A stretch of DNA of 64,000 bases from Mytilus galloprovincialis (taxonomy: Eukaryota; Mollusca; Bivalvia; Mytilida; Mytilidae), in assembly GCF_965363235.1 (NCBI RefSeq), contig NC_134844.1, positions 21,744,646-21,808,645 on the forward strand, read 5' to 3'. A program made the position numbers and the translations under genes. The notes beneath the pieces were generated by a model. The model was not told the origin of the DNA. It did no database searches and was given only the letters and a program-made list of their open reading frames with translations. This document shows, one piece after another, positions 2,296 to 63,900 of this stretch (position 1 is the stretch's first letter; every line of letters begins with the position of its first letter).

Positions 2296-3486
2296 CTATA
2301 CTTCAAGACCATCTTGTATTATTTGTGAAGTTGATACGGAATATTTATCAACAAGTTCTGGGTATCTTCCGATGAACTTTTTTAGAAAAAGGACGAGACG
2401 TTCTTTGACATATCCCTGGTTCATCAATTTTCTGCTCAGACACTGGTGACGTTTTACAAAGTCTGAATAGGAGCTGCAAGCTCTTGAATACCTAATAAGT
2501 TGGGAAATGTATATTCCATATGCAGGTGAAGTTGGTATATTACTACTAAGGTGGGGGAAATTGATAATTTCAAAATTAAAATCGTCTCGTTTGTCATAGA
2601 TTCTGGTACTGAGATGACTGTGTATGTCAAATTCGAGGTATAAGTCTAAAAATGAGGCAGAGGAAGCCGTGTCTGTGGTCTCTTTAATTTCTAGTTCTGG
2701 TGGGTATATTAATGGAATCCAATCAGAAAAGTTCGGATTGTTAATGGAAAGAACATCATCAATATATCTGAAAGTGAAATTAAATAACCTGGCTTCTTTG
2801 ATCTTCTTGTTTTTGACAAGTGTCTGAAGGAACTCCGATTCATATGAAAATAAGAAGAGGTCGGCAAGGAGAGGCGCACAGTTCGTTCCCATAGGAATGC
2901 CGACAATTTGTTGAAAAAGTCTACCTCCAAATTCAACAAATATGTTGTCAATAAGAAACTCCAGCATACTGATCACTTGTTCCTCTGTGTAGTATGTTTT
3001 ACCCTTTTGTTCCTTATTAACAAAATATGCCTTGTGGTATCCCAAAGTGATAAATTTATAGCGTATGCTACCATTTTTATGATGAAAAGCATTGTGAATT
3101 ATTTCTTTTAGACGGGTTTTCAATTTCACATGGGGAATGGTTGTATACAAGGTTGAAAAATCAAAAGTTTTAATAGAACTAATTTCAGAAAAAGACCGAG
3201 ATTTAAAATTATCCAGAAGTTCTTTAGAGTTTTTCAGAATCCACATATGGTTAATACCACTACGTGAGTAAACAGTTTCACAGTATATCTGAAGACCCTC
3301 TTTAACTGCGGACAGAATTTTAGTCAATCTAATGGACAATTCTTTAGTAGAACAAGCAGATGAGCCGGCTATGTACCGTTGTTTGTACGGAATTTTGTGA
3401 AGTTTAGGTATCCAATACAAACAAGGTAAGTCCTCCGATTTGTTGTTCAATGCAATGTAAGAGTGTGAGAGAAATGCACAAAATCT
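2296..3486 (-). CDS. Reverse transcriptase of a Penelope-like element
   Basis: This would copy element RNA into DNA. The frame is open from about 3486. The first usable start is a TTG at 3450, so the true N terminus is probably upstream and missing; counting from 3450 gives 384 residues. Motifs in order: WIPKLHK with RYIAGSS near residues 13-31; motif A FDFSTLYTTIP at 96-106 with its catalytic Asp; GIPMGTNCAPLLADLFL at 184-200; motif C YIDD at 229-232 with both Asp; a SFLDLYLEF segment near 266-274; and KRDDFNF near 287-293. All RT catalytic aspartates are present. No GIY-YIG endonuclease follows: the frame ends soon after the RT thumb-like region. I recall very similar predicted proteins in molluscs and cnidarians. 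The exact clade (Penelope-like versus a sister group) is not settled from sequence alone. Confidence 0.8.
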   Translation of the reverse strand, partial: RFCAFLSHSYIALNNKSEDLPCLYWIPKLHKIPYKQRYIAGSSACSTKELSIRLTKILSAVKEGLQIYCETVYSRSGINHMWILKNSKELLDNFKSRSFSEISSIKTFDFSTLYTTIPHVKLKTRLKEIIHNAFHHKNGSIRYKFITLGYHKAYFVNKEQKGKTYYTEEQVISMLEFLIDNIFVEFGGRLFQQIVGIPMGTNCAPLLADLFLFSYESEFLQTLVKNKKIKEARLFNFTFRYIDDVLSINNPNFSDWIPLIYPPELEIKETTDTASSASFLDLYLEFDIHSHLSTRIYDKRDDFNFEIINFPHLSSNIPTSPAYGIYISQLIRYSRACSSYSDFVKRHQCLSRKLMNQGYVKERLVLFLKKFIGRYPELVDKYSVSTSQIIQDGLEV

Positions 3487-5414: not shown

Positions 5415-6214
5415 CGGGGCGCCGAATGGGACTCTTGTGATTTTGTACTCGAAATTTAAAATTTTGTCATACAAAATTATCTTTCAGTGGACAAAAGTTA
5501 CTTTTGTCATGACAAAATTTATTTTTGTAACACAGACTTTACTTTTGTTACCTAATTTGAAAATTGGGCGACAAAAGTCAATTTTGTATGCAAATTTGTT
5601 TAGTTTGGATTCTGTGAACTAATTTGCATACAAAATCGACTTTTGTGAGACAAAATTGACATTTGTGAGACAAAATTGACATTTGTGAGACAAAATTGAC
5701 TTTTGTGAGACAAAATTGACAAAATTGAGTTTTGTCTCACAAAATCAATTTTGTATGCAAATTTGTTTAGTTTGGATTCTGTGAACTAATTTGCATACAA
5801 AATCGACTTTTGTGACAAAAAATTGACATTTGTGAGACAAAATTGACAAAATTGAATTTTGTCTCACAAAATTGAGTTTTGTCTCACAAAAGTCAATTTT
5901 GTCTCACAAAAGTCAATTTTGTCTCACACAATTGACTTTTGTGTTTTAATTTCCATATCAGGTAACAAAAGTCTATTTTGTATGCAAATAAGTTTATATT
6001 TGCATACCTTTTTGACAAAATTGACTTTTGTCATGACAAAAATTGAATTTTGTCTACAAAAATGAATTTTGTCTACAAAAATGAATTATGTCATCACAAA
6101 ATTGAAGTTCTCATAAAACAAGTCTGTATCACATAGTTTTGTAAGACAAAAATGATTTTGTTATGACAGAATTGAATTTTGTACAAAACCACAAGAGTCC
6201 TATTCGGCGCCCCG
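5415..6214. mobile_element. 800-bp foldback element with TA target sites and ACAAAA/TTTTGT satellite core
   Basis: The left end starts CGGGGCGCCGAATGGGACTC and the right end is its reverse complement with two changes over about 34 bp. TA flanks both sides (5413-5414 and 6215-6216), which suggests a TA target duplication as in Tc1/mariner-type MITEs. The core consists of short monomers alternating ACAAAA and TTTTGT. One block (about 5645-5727) repeats a 20-bp unit containing GAGACAAAATTGAC four times. A longer block starting GTTTAGTTTGGATTCTGTG occurs at about 5598 and 5765. Open frames in this region come from the repeat and are not genes. Confidence 0.8.
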
Positions 6215-8133: not shown

Positions 8134-11100
8134 TCATTCTTCCCCTATCCCCCCTACTATCACATTTTTAGTCGTGTTGATTTTTTGTATTGTTAAACCA
8201 GTATGTACATCAGAGGTAGCCACCAGAAAATAGTCTAACGTTCTTTCTGTACATTCTGCTATAAATCTTATAAATGGATGAACATCACCCATGTTTACTA
8301 GCTGTAAAGTATCGTAATATGTCTGTCTATCTTCTACCCTCACTATAACGGGAGGATAACCTGCTTGCATGAGTATAAGATTCATAAGTAACCGAGATGT
8401 TCTTCCATTTCCATCATAAAACGGATGGATATATACAAGTTTATAATGAGCCAGTGCAGCATATTCGATTGGGTGAAGCTGTAAAGCTTCTTCTGAATTC
8501 ATCCATTCTATAAATCCATCCATTAAAGTTGGTATATCCTGCGCTGCAGGAGGTGTAAAATCACCTACAAAAACTTGTGTCTGTCTTAATCGACCTGCTT
8601 CTGTTAAATCTACATAGCCTAGCACTCTTTTATGGATTTCTAGAATATCTAGTAAAGAGATATTACCAATTTTGCCTAACAAAGTACTATTTACAAAACT
8701 TAAAGCAGCATCTAATCCTAGCACTTCATTCTGTTCTAATAAACTTTTACCTCCAACTGCAATTCTTGTTTCTATAATTGAACGAGTTTGCATCAATGTT
8801 AATGTGTTCCCTTCGATAGCATTGGAATGATAAATATTTTGAAAATAAGATTCTTTTTTGGCTCTCCGCAAACCAGGATGATTATGAGGAACTTTCATAA
8901 AATGTTTCAATTTCTTATCAATTCTGTTAAAATTTTTCAGATCAATTTCCTCGACCAATGGTTGAATTCTCTGCTTGGCTACTAAAGCTTTTGAATGCTC
9001 TGGGCATATATGTAAGGCTCTTTTGTACATGCTGTCTGCTAAAGTAATATCATGCTCAATTTTTTCTAAAAATTCTCCATAGGCGGTGAGAATCTCTACG
9101 TGTGAAGGATCCAGATTTATGGCATGAAGATACAGTTTCAATGCTTTTTCTCTTTTGCCTTGAGCTTCCATATCCAAAGCCAGATTCATCGCAGTTACTG
9201 CCTCTTTACTCACTCCTGCAATTACAAAATCCTTAAAGGTCAATAATTATATATACTAAATTTCTAATAAATTATAATGATACATTTATGTACCTGTACA
9301 CAGATTAAACAGCGCAAGAAATAGCCGGATTTACTATGTTTACTGTCATGACTGTGTCAAAAATTCAATTGTGATTTTTATTTATTTTAGTAGCTCCAAA
9401 TACAAACAAATATTTTTTTTATATTTTTAATACTACAATTTTATATAACAAAAAACAAATGCATGTATGAAATGAGAAGCTTTCTATGATTTATCTAGAA
9501 GTTCAATATTCCAAGCTTTGGGACTTTCAAGCTTTTTGAATTGTACATATTAATGTAAACTGTAAGTTTTGCAACAATGTCTTTGAAATGCCAAAAACAT
9601 CTTAGCATTAAGATGCCCAACTTATGCAATCTTTGAAAACAGGTTTGAGTTTCATAAAATCAATAGACACAGATCTCAGCATTCAGTGGCAAATCCATAT
9701 GCATATTCAGAACAAGACGCCTTTTGACGTCACCCCCTTTACTCCATAATGACGCCTTTCGACGCCTGTGTAGTGCCTCAGTTGAAATGTATTACCTAGG
9801 AAAAAACTTCATCAGACTTAAACAAAAATGTATCTAAAATAAAAAGGATATTCATGAGAACATCTGACTGGAATTTCATTGATGAAAAATGTGTTTTCAC
9901 AATGCATTAATACTTTAAACCTGATGATTATTTTTCATTGAAAAAATCCTATGTGAATCAAGTATGTAAAAAAAAAAATCCATGGAGGAAAGGGTTAATA
10001 ATATTAACCCTGCTTTGTACTACACCAACATGCAGAGCCAGATTGTTTTATGTCCTAGTTCAGAAGTTTACAGTCCACAGTAAGACATATCATCTTACAG
10101 TGGATCTAAGTGTGATGCCGGATTGCCAAATTTCTGTAATCGTGACACAATTATTGAAAGTCAAATTATTGTGCCGTGAAAACGTGAAAAGCCAACAGGG
10201 TGTGGGAAATTACAAAAGAAGTGAGAATTGCTTACGTACATTATTATGAGTGTAAACGGGATACAGGAATCTTACAAAACAGTATAAAGCGGGATGCAGG
10301 ATCAGAAACCCCCAATTAGATCCCCCTTACAGGGATACATTGTTTTTACTTTTAGCCGACTGGTCAGTCTTTGCTCTTTCTCCTAATTGCTGCATGCATA
10401 TACTTAGGGGAAAAGCTGCAAATACCAATTTATAAGCCTTTGGTTTGACCTGGCAGGGGAACAAACTCAACCTCTAGCAATTGAGGCAAACTAGTCCAGA
10501 TAATCATTCTGTCTGATGTGGGTATTTTTCGATTTTGACCTTTTTTTATTCCACATTGTCACAAGAAGGCGTCCAAAAAAAAAATTAGTCTTGTCAGACG
10601 TCATAATTATTTGGACTAGAGGCAAACATGCTACCAAAAGACTGTATCCAGTTGTTCCAGCTTCAAGTCAATCGGGCCCCAAGTCATTCCAGCCCCATAA
10701 TAAATGATAAGGAATAAACTATACAGACTTTTAATTAGTATAAATGGAATTTGTAAAAAGTATCAATGATGGATGACAACAGGTAAGTGTGAGGAATTTT
10801 AAGAACTTCAAACAAAAACAAAGTTTGTATGTATCAGCTTGGGGATCGGCTTTTACCATTATGTACATGTATGTAACTATTTGTTATTACACAGGATTAA
10901 AGACTTGTTAAGATCACAGTCAATTGAAAGAAATTGATTATTTAATACTGATAATTAATGTTGATTGTCTTAAATTCTGTTATATTTTTTTTAATATAAT
11001 TATACCCAATAATCTAGAAAACTTGTAGTGAAAACATTTTTTTACTTAACTAAATATATTTTTTTATTGGGGCCGGATCGACTTTAAATATGGACCGGAT

Positions 11101-49304: not shown

Positions 49305-50094
49305 TTTTGCTGTGGTTAGTATGTAAATTACTACATTATTTGATCGTTTTCAACAATAAATGGGCTTTTGTTGTCACTTTGACTTCCATGTTTGTTTCCT
49401 GATGTAAAGTCTAGAGGTATTCCGGTCTCATTCCGAATGAAAACAGTTAATAACCGAAATTAGTTTGTTTAATGAATCGACTAGTCACGTACTAAATAAG
49501 AAAGTACGTCACTAAATGTTATCAGAGACATATAATACAATTATATGTCTCTGATGTTATCTTACCCAGCTATAAAAAAAAAAAAAAAAAAAAAACAGAT
49601 ACTGAAGGAACATACTCGTGATAAACTTTTTAAAAAATTGTCACAAAAACAGACGAAAAAGTTAAAATCCTAATTAAAAAAAAAAGTTATATTAATTATT
49701 ATCAAACTCTAATGATAAAATAAACAACACTGACCAGAGGAATGAAAGTAATTAAATATATCTATAGAAAATTCGTAAATCTCATCAAGGATGATCTCAT
49801 ATAATAATCAAGTGTAATAATAGTCACAACCTTACTCACCCAAAAAAAAAAGAAACAAGTAAAAATGTGAACTACATTTAGAATAAGTGATCATTGGTTT
49901 TTAATCAGAAACTGGACGATATACAAAACATTGAAAAATACCAAGACATGAAATGTAAAATATGTAACATCTTAGTTGATGAATTCCACCTTTTCTTTAA
50001 CTGTAAAATTTATTTAAATAATAGAAAATACACCTTTAGAGATGTATTGAAAAATATGTAAATTGCTATACACTGCGGAGGAAATGAGACCAAT
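49305..50094. other. TAF8 upstream region and intergenic DNA
   Basis: The TAF8 promoter must lie just above 49304; I see no clear TATA or initiator. An uninterrupted run of 22 A lies at 49574-49595. Apart from the palindrome at 49516-49561, I see nothing else recognisable. Confidence 0.45.
49516..49561. mobile_element. 30-bp palindromic insertion with 8-bp target duplication (copy 1)
   Basis: ATGTTATC at 49516-49523 is repeated exactly at 49554-49561. The 30 bp between them (49524-49553) form a palindrome with arms AGAGACATATAA / TTATATGTCTCT and an extra G at the right. Counting the last C of the left duplication, the ends are CAGAGACATAT / ATATGTCTCTG. An 8-bp duplication is the hAT signature. 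See the second copy at 51425-51469. Confidence 0.75.
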
Positions 50095-51349: not shown

Positions 51350-51855
51350 TATGCAGTTAAGCTGCATTATGCGAGCGCCCTCGATTTGTGTTCTACCCAA
51401 TAAATGCTGAAATACTTGCCATTGTTATTATCAGAGACATATAATACAATATATGTCTCTGTTATTATCTAGCTCGCTACTATGTTATATATAACTAATT
51501 GAACACTTTTTTAATACTTTTTATTCTGGATTACAAAAAATATGACCAGAAAAACCTTAAATGATCGTCGATTTATCCAAAAGTTTTGAAGTTACACATA
51601 GGAAGTAGTGCTTATTAAGAATCCTTGTGTAGTTCATTATGACTTGTGCTTTTAGATAAGATGTCAAAGAACAATTGTATGAAATATTTAATCGCCGAAA
51701 ATCTCTTAAGGCAAGTAGTTTAGATTTCCCAAATGGCAAAAGTCGTAGGGATATTGTTTGTCATCAATACGTAGTACAATTACGTCAATAGTCTATTATA
51801 TAATAAGTTCAACTGTTCATGCTGTTGGCGGCAATTTCAAATTAGAAAAAGAAAT
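51350..51855 (+). repeat. CAGTTAAGCTGC dispersed repeat, copy with palindromic insertion
   Basis: Same family as 23895-24185. It carries a 29-bp palindrome at 51433-51461 and an extra segment of about 200 bp (from about 51615) before the final GTTGGCGGCAATTTCAAATT. Confidence 0.8.
51425..51469. mobile_element. 29-bp palindromic insertion with 8-bp target duplication (copy 2)
   Basis: TTATTATC at 51425-51432 is repeated exactly at 51462-51469. The 29 bp between them match the insertion at 49524-49553 apart from one missing T at the centre. The related repeat at 23895-24185 has a single TTATTATC at the matching place, so this is an insertion and not a local palindrome. Confidence 0.85.
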
Positions 51856-55665: not shown

Positions 55666-57454
55666 TTATATATGGTTATACAGTGTTAGTTTAAATTAAT
55701 TAATTAGTTTAAATGAAAAAGTTATTATTTATAAATGATCAAATTGTTCATCTTATACTGGCATAAAGCCTGATTTTTCATCCGAAAAACCCTGGTATAA
55801 ACATGAAACAAAGTCTTAGTTGGCCGGAGCAGCAGCAGCAGTTGGTCCGTATACAAAAGCACACTTCCTCAACTATGTACTACATGACATCTGGTTTTGA
55901 GTGTATTTATCCCAGAATGAAAATGCGTCCTTGTATGTAGCGGGTCCTTACACGCTGATACCCGGCTCTATAGTAGAGATTCACGTTGATAGTAAACATG
56001 CATATTTAGAGTAAAAATATGGTATATTAGTGTATATATGGTACAAATAAGTGATATATATTAAAAAATCTGAGATTTATGATAATAAGGGGGAGGGACT
56101 ATGGGGGGCTCATAACAGGATCCTGTCCTCAAGCACCTATGTACAAAACAACATTTCAAAGTGTCACATGTAATATATATATATATCAAAAACTGTTCTT
56201 CAGTCTCTACTTCAGTGCAAAATTTGCAAAAACGCTGTTCTCTTGGAATTTGGGGTTTATTATATCTACCTCGTAATGAGCACTGCGGATACGTAGTTGT
56301 GTAATTTTACTTTTCATATTTTTGTAAGATTGGATTGAAGATAGTAGGGAACAAAATTTGGAACAAAAATATTACTGAAAAGCACCAGTTTACTGTCCAC
56401 AGCTCCAGATTTGATATTTTGTAGTTGTATGTCAGATTGCTGCCTAAAGTATCTATCAGACTATTTAAAAAAAAAAATGTGTGTTTTTTTTTTGTATCAA
56501 GTTTAATTCAGTACTTTAAATACTAGTGTAGAAAACCAGCATTTTGAGTTTTCATTAGATAATTCTTGATCTGCAGTAAATGCACTGTATAATATTTTAC
56601 CTCTATTTACTTTAAGTAATCTCATATACTTATTATACATTAAACATAATGAACCTGAAATCAACATTGGATTCCTGTTACATCAGAATGTCATTTGATT
56701 ATATTGAAGCAAATATGATAGAAAAATACATATTTTTTTTCAAATTTAGTTGAAGTTCCATAAATACATGTCGCGCTTTTGCCACAGACAGGACACAACA
56801 TATACAGAAAAAAAACTGAGAATTCGAAAACGTCCGGGATCGTCCGACATAAATTGTATATTACTCGGGAATGTGGGAAAGGTTTTAACACTTCTTTTGA
56901 TGGTGTTGCGGCGGTGACATTTTTTGCCAGAGGTTATATTGCTGAAAACACGCTTGCCATCGAAATTTAAACATTTAAGACAGCTGAATATGGAAAAGGT
57001 TACCTCTCAGGTTTGCAATTTAAATGAAACAATAAATATAAAGTTTCAATCTGGTGCACGGAGCACCTCTCACCACTGTAATTGCGGGTATATCCTATAA
57101 CCTTAGTTCTATTGACATTGCATAATGCAAACAATGTTTTACAAGCACATTAGAAATATCACACAATGATAACTGTTCATTGATTTGTCTCTCATTGATT
57201 GTTTAAAAGTAATTGATAGAAAAACTGATTTTTATTTGGAAATGTAACTTTGTTTGAACTGCAATGGTCAATGTGCCTCATGTAAGACACAGGGCACACC
57301 CTCCTAAATTGGAGGATGGAGGATAGATATGCAAATGTACTAATAATATAACTGATTCTTATTACCAAGGATCTTACTATACAAATCCTTGTTATAATAA
57401 CCTAATTTATTTGTTACATTTTCCCACTCTTTACATTATTAAGTTTTTATAGGG
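55666..57454. other. Intergenic, nothing recognised
   Basis: AT-rich sequence with short simple runs. I found no exon with a protein match and no clear element ends. Confidence 0.35.
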
Positions 57455-60957: not shown

Positions 60958-63900
60958 ATGGAAAGGGCAGACCTTGTTTACAAGCTGGTTGACGAACTAG
61001 AACCTGTGGTAATAATTATACTATATTTGATAGAAACAAACTTTGCTGCTGAATCCTGTTTAAAGCAACATTTCTCCATTTGCAATGATTTGTAAATATA
61101 TTTGATATATTTGTTTCATATAAATTACAATAAATGAACACAAATGATACTTATAGAGAATTGTTCAAAAAGACACTTGCCACTCAGTCCACTCAGTCCA
61201 TTCTTGGTATGTAGTTCCTTCCTACTAACTCAAACATATGTGAAATGTTTGACTTTGAGTTTTAAATGGCTGAAGATATTGAAATTCACTTTTTTGATTA
61301 ATTATCATGATTCAAGATAAAAATTATATTTAATGAAATTACAGCCTTAGGCTTAGAAAGGAGTAGGTCCAGGAAGACCCCTTTTTGGCCCCAAAATATA
61401 GCAGTTTTACAAAGTTGTTAAAATGTAAACTTTTAGTTATTTATTGGACAGTAGAATGCTTCTGCTACAAATATATGGGCTGTTTTTGACATAACAATGC
61501 ACATATATCGGGTACTAGCACCATAAAGTCATGCTAAATTACTGAAATCTTCACAATTCTAGCATTTGAGTTAAATTTTAGACGGTTTTCGTGTAAAACG
61601 AAAGTGGCCGCATTCGTGTTCATCCTTAATATTGAAATGTAAGTTGTATTTTATGATAATACATAATATATATAAAGGTTGAGGATGAACACGGATGCGG
61701 CCACTTTCATTTTTGACAAAAACCATCTGAAAAGTGACATTTTTCAGCATATTTGGTAGATTTTTCATATTTGAGCTTGAATCGGATCGTTTTTAATGAC
61801 TGAATCAGTTAAAATCTTTCCATAAACTAATTGATTCAAATAAAATAGACACTTAAGTGTTTAAAAAGTGGTCAAAATCTTTCGTCAGATGAACCTGAAA
61901 TTTGAGGCCAAAATCGGTGCTTACCGGACCTACTCCTTTATCAACTCAATTTTCAAACAATTGCAGACTTTGCATAAATATTTTTTCAACCCAAAATACA
62001 TTAGCAAATGTATTGATATTCATTTACAAACAGTAGATTTCTATCCGACACAGCTCATTTAACATTTACATGTACATGATTTACAAACACAAATAATGAT
62101 AGAGATATACATTGTATGGTGTTAAATCAACATCAGACAGCTATCCAGATATTACCAAAGACAAAATTTACTTTATTTTGAATTCATGAATTAACTTTGC
62201 TACCAAAAATAAATGAATCCACAGTATTGAAAAAGGAGTTATAGGAACACAGAATGGTGCATCTGTTTTTTACGTTTACTTCCTGTATTACTTTGTAGTT
62301 AAAGAAGTATGCCTCCACAGGAATTGAGGTAGGGAATATATAGGATGTTGCATAGATCTGTTTATTACATGTACTTCCTTTTCATTTTCTAGTTAGAGAA
62401 GTATGCCTCCACAGGAATCGAGGTAGCTGTACTGATAAGTAAGGTCAATGACAATGTTGTTGGTTACCAAGGAACAAAGTTAGGCAAAGATTTCCTGGAA
62501 CAGAATACTTTCTTTACAGAGACATTTAGGAAGTTTTGTAAAGGTAAATATGATATCTCAGACACAAAGCTGTCAAAATCTTTATGACTGTCCCACTATC
62601 ACAAATGCCTTCCAATCAAAACAAACATACCGGTATGATTCAACAGAAATTAACCTGATTTATGGGCGTCCACAAATATTCACTCTGCGGTTAAAGTTTT
62701 TGAAATTGTCATAACTTTCTTAGACTAGCATGGATTTCTTCCAAACTTAGACAGAAGCTTGTTTATAATCATAAGATAGTACACAGAAGAAAATTTTGTA
62801 AAAAAAAAAACCCACTTTTTTCCATAGTTTACATATAAATGAACTTGATTTTTCTTCCAGTTAGCATTACAAACAGTCTACAGTTAAATTTTTTAAAACC
62901 TTTATTAGATTCATAAACTATGCTGGATTTTGACCAAACTTGGACAGAAGGTACTCACAAATGAGGAAAAAAATTGATAAAATATTCCACTCGAGTTATA
63001 TCTTACATATCGAGTGGAATATTTTATCAATTTTTTTCCTCATTTTTGTTGAGCCTGCAATTAACAGCAAAAGTAGGCGAGCCACTGGGTTCTACGGAAC
63101 CCTTACAAATTTTATTGCTAACTAAACCTATTGCTTGTGTGAAAGTTGCTTAAAATTGCATAAAATTTTGTCTATATTAAAGAGATGAGGTATGATTGCA
63201 AATGAGACAACTTTGATTTTAATAAAATATGAGAAATTGTTTGTGAATAGTACATATTAAAAAGGAAATACCAGGGTTGTCAATTTGTGAGCTGAATAAA
63301 AATTTATATTTTTTTTATAGCAGAATATATTCGTGGTAAATCCCATGCTTGTATAACAAGAGCTTTTGTCTAAGTGATATACCAACAAAGTAATCATGGT
63401 ATATAATATGACAACTTCCAAATGTTGTAATGTGTTGCTTTGAAGAAAAAGGAGGCAACCAGACCTTTGCCCTTTACTTGTCATTCAAAATGTTTGAAAA
63501 TTTCAATTCTAGGCTTTTAAAACAATTTATAATGCATGAACTAATTATAATGGATCAGCATTTCATGTGTTCCTTAGACTAGTCACCATTTAACTTACCA
63601 TCAAGATGACCTCCCATGACTGCTGATGATCATACAACTAGATACTTACATTAAAATAAAAGTATCTTTGTTTCAAAATAGAAAATGAGACATATAATAC
63701 TTTTATTTTTTGGCAGAAGTTCATTTATTAACAAATAATTTTAAACACACATAAAGTCAATCACTAATTTTTTTTATAAAGAAAGATTTGATTGTTTATT
63801 TTAGATTACTGGTATGGAGCTGACAATGTAGCAACATACTCAACACCTATCAAAAAGATGAAGATTCAGACATCTAATGATGAACATGAGGAGATAAATG

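Follow-up and report, generated by a model that had tools for sequence, protein, structure and literature searches.

Can a unit of about 30 bp, consisting of little more than two joined transposon ends, be mobile in its own right? The question arises from a 64,000-nucleotide stretch of a bivalve genome (C7:21744646-21808645, hereafter the window), in which two near-identical palindromes, CAGAGACATATAATACAATTATATGTCTCTG and CAGAGACATATAATACAATATATGTCTCTG, are each enclosed by an exact direct repeat, and the repeats around the two differ (ATGTTAT and TTATTAT). The original prediction, made from the window alone, took them for units of 30 bp and 29 bp (the latter at 51433-51461), moved by hAT-type transposition with 8-bp target duplications, and left it as a puzzle how a transposase would bring together ends so close to each other. 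The exact and mutually different flanking repeats are present as described, and both palindromes exist, but their lengths are 31 and 30 bp. A symmetric reading of the ends (CAGAG...CTCTG) gives a duplication of 7 bp; the count of 8 bp arose because the left end starts with C and, in both copies, the base after the right repeat is a C as well. The features, to which no strand was assigned, are as follows.

49516..49522, no strand: left target-site duplication of copy 1, ATGTTAT, 7 bp
49523..49553, no strand: putative palindromic scar of 31 bp, CAGAGACATATAATACAATTATATGTCTCTG, delimited by comparison with the terminal inverted repeat (TIR)
49554..49560, no strand: right target-site duplication of copy 1, ATGTTAT
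51425..51431, no strand: left target-site duplication of copy 2, TTATTAT, 7 bp
51432..51461, no strand: putative palindromic scar of 30 bp, CAGAGACATATAATACAATATATGTCTCTG, delimited by comparison with the TIR
51462..51468, no strand: right target-site duplication of copy 2, TTATTAT

By chance, direct repeats exact over 7 bp are rare at such a spacing: among the window's positions, 14 of 63,954 show one at 30 bp and 14 of 63,953 at 31 bp, a rate of about 2e-4. As single strands, both palindromes fold far better than shuffled sequences (z of -6.9 and -5.9). A half-like match had also been pointed out at 63687: GAGACATATAATAC, which corresponds to scar bases 3-16, does occur at 63687-63700 and gave 0 matches in 100 shuffles, but neither a partner arm nor a duplication was seen around it.

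We searched the whole genome (1,384,861,812 bases, or 1.38 Gb, in 331 contigs) for CAGAGACATAT followed by 0-30 bases and then ATATGTCTCTG, a pattern that demands perfect 11-bp arms. It matched at 1,452 places and the reversed control pattern at 0; with 31-91 bp between the arms there were 60 places. Flanks were tabulated for 50 places on C1 (about its first 33 Mb) and for the two copies in the window, and removal of 6 duplicates by flank left 46 distinct copies. With 11 more from loci fetched for other reasons, the larger set comprises 57 of about 1,450 copies and is a non-random sample. (L042, L053 and L066 lie in one larger repeat, L053 being counted separately from L042 on account of its different flanks, and L059-L063 lie in one duplication; the 57 include L098, one half of a compound copy, and a nested artefact, a 43-mer in L077.)

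An exact 7-bp duplication surrounds 35 of the 46 copies and 43 of the 57, and an 8-bp duplication surrounds none in either set (0/46 and 0/57); permuted flanks, the control for the set of 46, gave 223/90,020. The other 14 copies of the larger set have one mismatch (n=2), two (n=4), three (n=4), four (n=2) or six (n=2). There are 42 different sequences among the 43 duplications, TTATTAT of window copy 2 being found again at L068. Independent transposon insertions with target-site duplications, as first proposed, are thus supported by many copies with matching flanks. Two other readings that the window copies alone would have permitted, a 3-bp duplication and a fixed 46-bp repeat, were ruled out by this genome-wide table. 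When the 43 duplications and their complements are taken together, T at position 2 and A at position 6 are found in 68 of 86, which defines a palindromic target motif, nTnnnAn. This preference accounts in part for the TTATC shared by the two window sites, which had been taken as a hint of site preference.

Empty sites are found reciprocally at two loci of one older repeat: L031 carries 36+7 bp where L050 carries none, and L050 carries 31+7 bp (the form of window copy 1 on the other strand, with its own 7-bp duplication) where L031 carries none. Scars also lie nested within scars at L077 and L101, each with its own 7-bp repeat. In a collection of genome contigs the palindrome was found at 3 loci, unrelated by flanks; viral contigs held no copy of it, and the 14 loci at which they contain the 16-base end are all unrelated by flanks.

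The copies with 31-91 bp between the arms indicated which sequence lies behind the ends. Across the genome there are 145 matches (73 + 72) to the 31-mer CAGAGACATATAWWMMMAGAGATTGGCAACT, often in facing pairs, and ten facing pairs among the matches listed are spaced 4.2-4.36 kb. The following long elements have perfect TIRs.

L137: 4,292 bp, TIR of 32 bp, exact 7-bp repeat
L138: 4,339 bp, TIR of 32 bp, exact 7-bp repeat
L139: 4,360 bp, TIR of 31 bp, exact 7-bp repeat
L140: 6,901 bp, TIR of 32 bp, exact 7-bp repeat
L141: 6,556 bp, TIR of 32 bp, exact 7-bp repeat
L142: 7,688 bp, TIR of 32 bp, exact 7-bp repeat

L137, L138, L140 and L141 are about 88-98% alike across their aligned parts, with extra internal blocks in L140 and L141. 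L142 is more distant, and its right half (about 3.7 kb before the right TIR) is unrelated to the other long elements. Two end types, A (..ATACAA) and B (..TACACA), are found among long elements and palindromes alike; L139, which has the other end type, has little beyond the TIR in common with A-type elements and no match of more than 100 bp to the rest at E 1e-20. Both ends were read in ten long elements: the repeat is exact over 7 bp in nine of them and over 8 bp in one (L121/L122, ATGAAAAC). A relative of only 267 bp, with the duplication CCATAGG, lies at L084:574-840. A full-length hAT element with such ends had been suggested as something to look for. Elements of about 4.3 kb do have these ends; six-frame Pfam scans of L137, L139 and L142:4001-7738 contained no hAT domain. 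Nor was any transposase found in these scans, where the matches were all weak, below the cutoff and to unrelated families; the long copies examined are therefore probably non-autonomous.

Comparison with the long elements reveals how the palindromes are built, and the description of them as little more than two joined ends holds. The scar at 49523-49553 combines the outer 18 bp of the left TIR with the outer 14 bp of the right TIR, overlapping by 1 bp. That at 51432-51461 combines the outer 18 bp with 12-13 bp, overlapping by 0-1, and its form is also present at C1:49677 (L018, L022) with the duplication GTGAGGG. Across the 57 copies, each scar end retains 11 to 18 bp of the TIR, with exactly 18 in 38 of 114 ends and at least 19 in 0 of 114; the lower bound of 11 bp is imposed by the search pattern, while the upper bound was free (totals of up to 52 bp were permitted). 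The palindromes therefore hold at most 18 of 31-32 TIR bp, and do not carry the two complete TIRs that define a mobile MITE. That description fits the 267-bp element better.

The centres of the scars look like end-joining junctions. Plain joints of a TIR prefix to a TIR suffix, with an overlap of 0-6 bp, make up 38 of the 57 copies, and the other 19 have extra bases at the centre. Whereas 28 of the 38 plain joints have exactly the form of a copy at another site, only 2 of the 19 copies with extra bases do (Fisher p = 1e-5), and these two share the sole recurring form of that class, a 38-bp form at L042 and L080 that is compatible with a TIR variant containing an additional AT. Junctions dictated by the TIR thus recur and chance ones hardly do so, which argues for independent end-joining events and not for descent of a moving unit.

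Among 35 loci from the 31-91-bp class, 11 copies carry interior sequence (L075, L086, L087 and L090-L097; the compound L072 was excluded). Seven of them have an exact duplication and four a duplication with 1-2 mismatches, as expected from incomplete gap repair. By eye, some longer copies (L099, L100, L103) contain repeated TIR pieces, and L074 contains short tandem pieces. On the minus strand of L090, at about 342-430, CAGAGACATATATACACATGTG and GTTTCAC units stand in tandem, as if end and duplication had been copied several times.

We consider it likely, with good though not full confidence, that the palindromes are excision footprints of transposons resembling the P superfamily, and a 30-bp mobile unit they probably are not. 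A transposon with 31-32-bp TIRs would insert and duplicate 7 bp of target. Its transposase would later excise it by staggered cuts, one strand being severed at the outer end and its complement about 18 nt within each TIR; both donor ends could then retain up to 18 nt of TIR. The cell would then fill in, trim and join these ends, either blunt, via microhomology or with a few added bases. The expected product is a duplicated target around a palindrome of 22-36 bp, occasionally longer, to which each end contributes no more than 18 bp. If the palindromes are such donor-site scars, the question of how a transposase could pair ends only 30 bp from each other no longer arises.

The inside cut is deduced from the scars, and membership in the P superfamily, and with it the type of enzyme, is unproven, being argued from geometry and duplication length, not from a gene. 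Marks by which such membership can be judged are 7-8-bp target-site duplications, a TIR of about 31 bp starting with CA, a second cut about 17 nt inside the TIR and a palindromic target motif. Here, the duplications are of 7 bp in 43/57 scars, and of 7 or 8 bp in 9/10 and 1/10 long elements; the TIRs of L137-L142, which start with CA, measure 32, 32, 31, 32, 32 and 32 bp; the 18-bp edge of the scar ends points indirectly to a corresponding cut; and the target motif is that found in 68/86. The TIR of the Drosophila P element is likewise 31 bp long, and P-type transposases combine a THAP domain with an RNase H-like domain and a GTP-binding insertion. Work on excision in flies reports that P transposase leaves 17-nt 3′ TIR tails on the donor ends, and that these are joined by microhomology, blunt or with insertions, the products in Table 1 lying between 8-bp duplications (PMC2895639). 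In flies, as here, a footprint is a near-palindrome made of a duplication, up to about 17 bp of each TIR, a joint and a duplication, in blunt, microhomology and insertion classes; the differences are an 18-nt limit here instead of 17 and a 7-bp instead of an 8-bp duplication (PMC2895639). That table also includes joints with most or all of the TIR lost (PMC2895639), a class beyond the reach of a search pattern with 11-bp arms. The fly products are induced events, whereas the bivalve scars are a natural fossil population.

For Galileo, another member of the P superfamily, 7-bp and rarely 8-bp duplications are described, with targets like GTATTAC or GTANTAC (PMC4168063). The duplication lengths are as in the bivalve, and so is a palindromic motif whose second and sixth bases are T and A, but Galileo TIRs are long and variable (PMC4168063). 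Two further groups were considered and set aside: KolobokP, considered for its bivalve range, whose solo repeats are flanked by 3-5-bp duplications (PMC9587614), and Dada, which has 6-7-bp duplications but includes the Dada-U6 and Dada-U1 families without terminal inverted repeats (PMC3706591).

It is unlikely that the parent was a hAT-type element, as first proposed. The ends CAGAG...CTCTG are hAT-like, the target nTnnnAn is akin to the nTnnnnAn of hAT elements, and hAT MITEs are short non-autonomous copies with CAG...CTG ends comparable to those of the palindromes. Yet hAT MITEs have an 8-bp duplication and footprints without TIR remains, unlike the 7 bp and the TIR stumps seen here, where 8-bp duplications number 0/57 in scars and 1/10 in long elements. 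Excision by hAT transposases forms hairpins on the flanks, and to our knowledge does not leave 18 bp of each end behind. In favour of a hAT origin, Repbase text implies a 7-bp annotation for some hAT families (PMC4455052).

We think it improbable that the 22-36-bp palindromes themselves move, as two partial ends mobilised by a transposase in trans, perhaps via cruciform extrusion that would juxtapose the ends. Such mobility would explain why the same short forms occur at sites with different flanks (a 30-bp form at L019, L029, L036 and L088) and why clean empty sites exist (L031/L050), and such a palindrome would be the shortest nuclear transposon known to us. Against it, centres not predictable from the TIR hardly ever recur (the 2/19 against 28/38 above), TIR bases 19-32 are missing from the scars, and copies with partial interiors bear duplications of the same kind. 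Tiny mobile palindromes are known from mitochondria: GC clusters in yeast, short palindromes with putative target duplications and a putative 2-nt (AG) target site (PMC4478555), and very short, dispersed hairpin repeats in sponges (PMC2800124). Those are very short and dispersed, as here, but organellar, whereas the bivalve palindromes are nuclear, with 7-bp duplications and 4.3-kb parents.

Least probable is an origin from a longer hairpin element whose interior disappeared after insertion, through replication slippage or hairpin cutting. Long elements that share these ends and a 7-bp duplication do exist, but one would hardly expect deletions to halt at bp 18 of a 31-32-bp repeat on both sides, and the numbers of short (1,452) and intermediate (60) copies form little of a continuum.

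With excision footprints as the preferred explanation, the 1,452 places amount to a genome-wide fossil record of DNA-transposon departures and of break repair in the bivalve germ line. Excision scars are usually too short to be recognised, and here a duplicated target together with a TIR stump makes them countable. The record also points to an inside cut of P-like type in molluscs, placed at 18 nt, and cautions that 'ultra-short MITEs' can be scars. P-element excision footprints are already known; what seems to be new is how many there are in a bivalve genome and how clear they are. In the open-licence literature searched, the palindromes were not described: papers matching the end sequence were unrelated by title, and among the entries listed for MITEs of minimal size none was pertinent. 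Units this short probably fall below the size limits of RepeatModeler, MITE Tracker and HelitronScanner, which are the tools used in a survey of bivalve transposable elements (PMC10294476).

Other families have left similar traces. We surveyed 122,166 bases, a non-random set consisting of the window and 3-kb loci, for CA...TG palindromes with exact flanking repeats. Repeats of 7 bp gave 18 matches at 16 places; repeats of 6, 8, 9 and 10 bp gave none and repeats of 5 bp gave one, inside a tandem array. Five of the 16 places lie outside the CAGAGAC family, four of them being CAAGGATTTGTATA... and close variants and one being CATGGAAGTATTAT.... The CAAGGATTTGTATA family (CAAGGAT...ATCCTTG) has exact 7-bp duplications at L071, L073 and L077, and one palindrome in the window is a probable old scar of this second family.

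57366..57391, no strand: 26-bp palindrome CAAGGATCTTACTATACAAATCCTTG (CAAGGAT...ATCCTTG), flanks TTATTAC/TTATAAT agreeing at 5/7

At L077:1454-1577 (and also in L078), a CAAGG-family scar and a CAGAGAC-family scar adjoin and have copies of one 7-bp repeat, ATAAAAC, in common; the second of these scars contains a nested scar.

Elsewhere in the window, a FICD reading frame lies at 8134-9246, with best named matches that are molluscan (Potamilus, a bivalve, 71%) and two others at 98% and 87%; the DNA is thus that of a mollusc and probably of a bivalve. An open frame of 396 aa on the minus strand at 2296-3486 has no Pfam match and is, by eye, what we take to be reverse-transcriptase-like. Positions 5461-6183 hold a dense array of ACAAAATTGA(C)TTTTGT-type units, both tandem and inverted. 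A nearly perfect 59-bp hairpin at 62973-63031, inside longer inverted flanks, is probably an ordinary foldback element.
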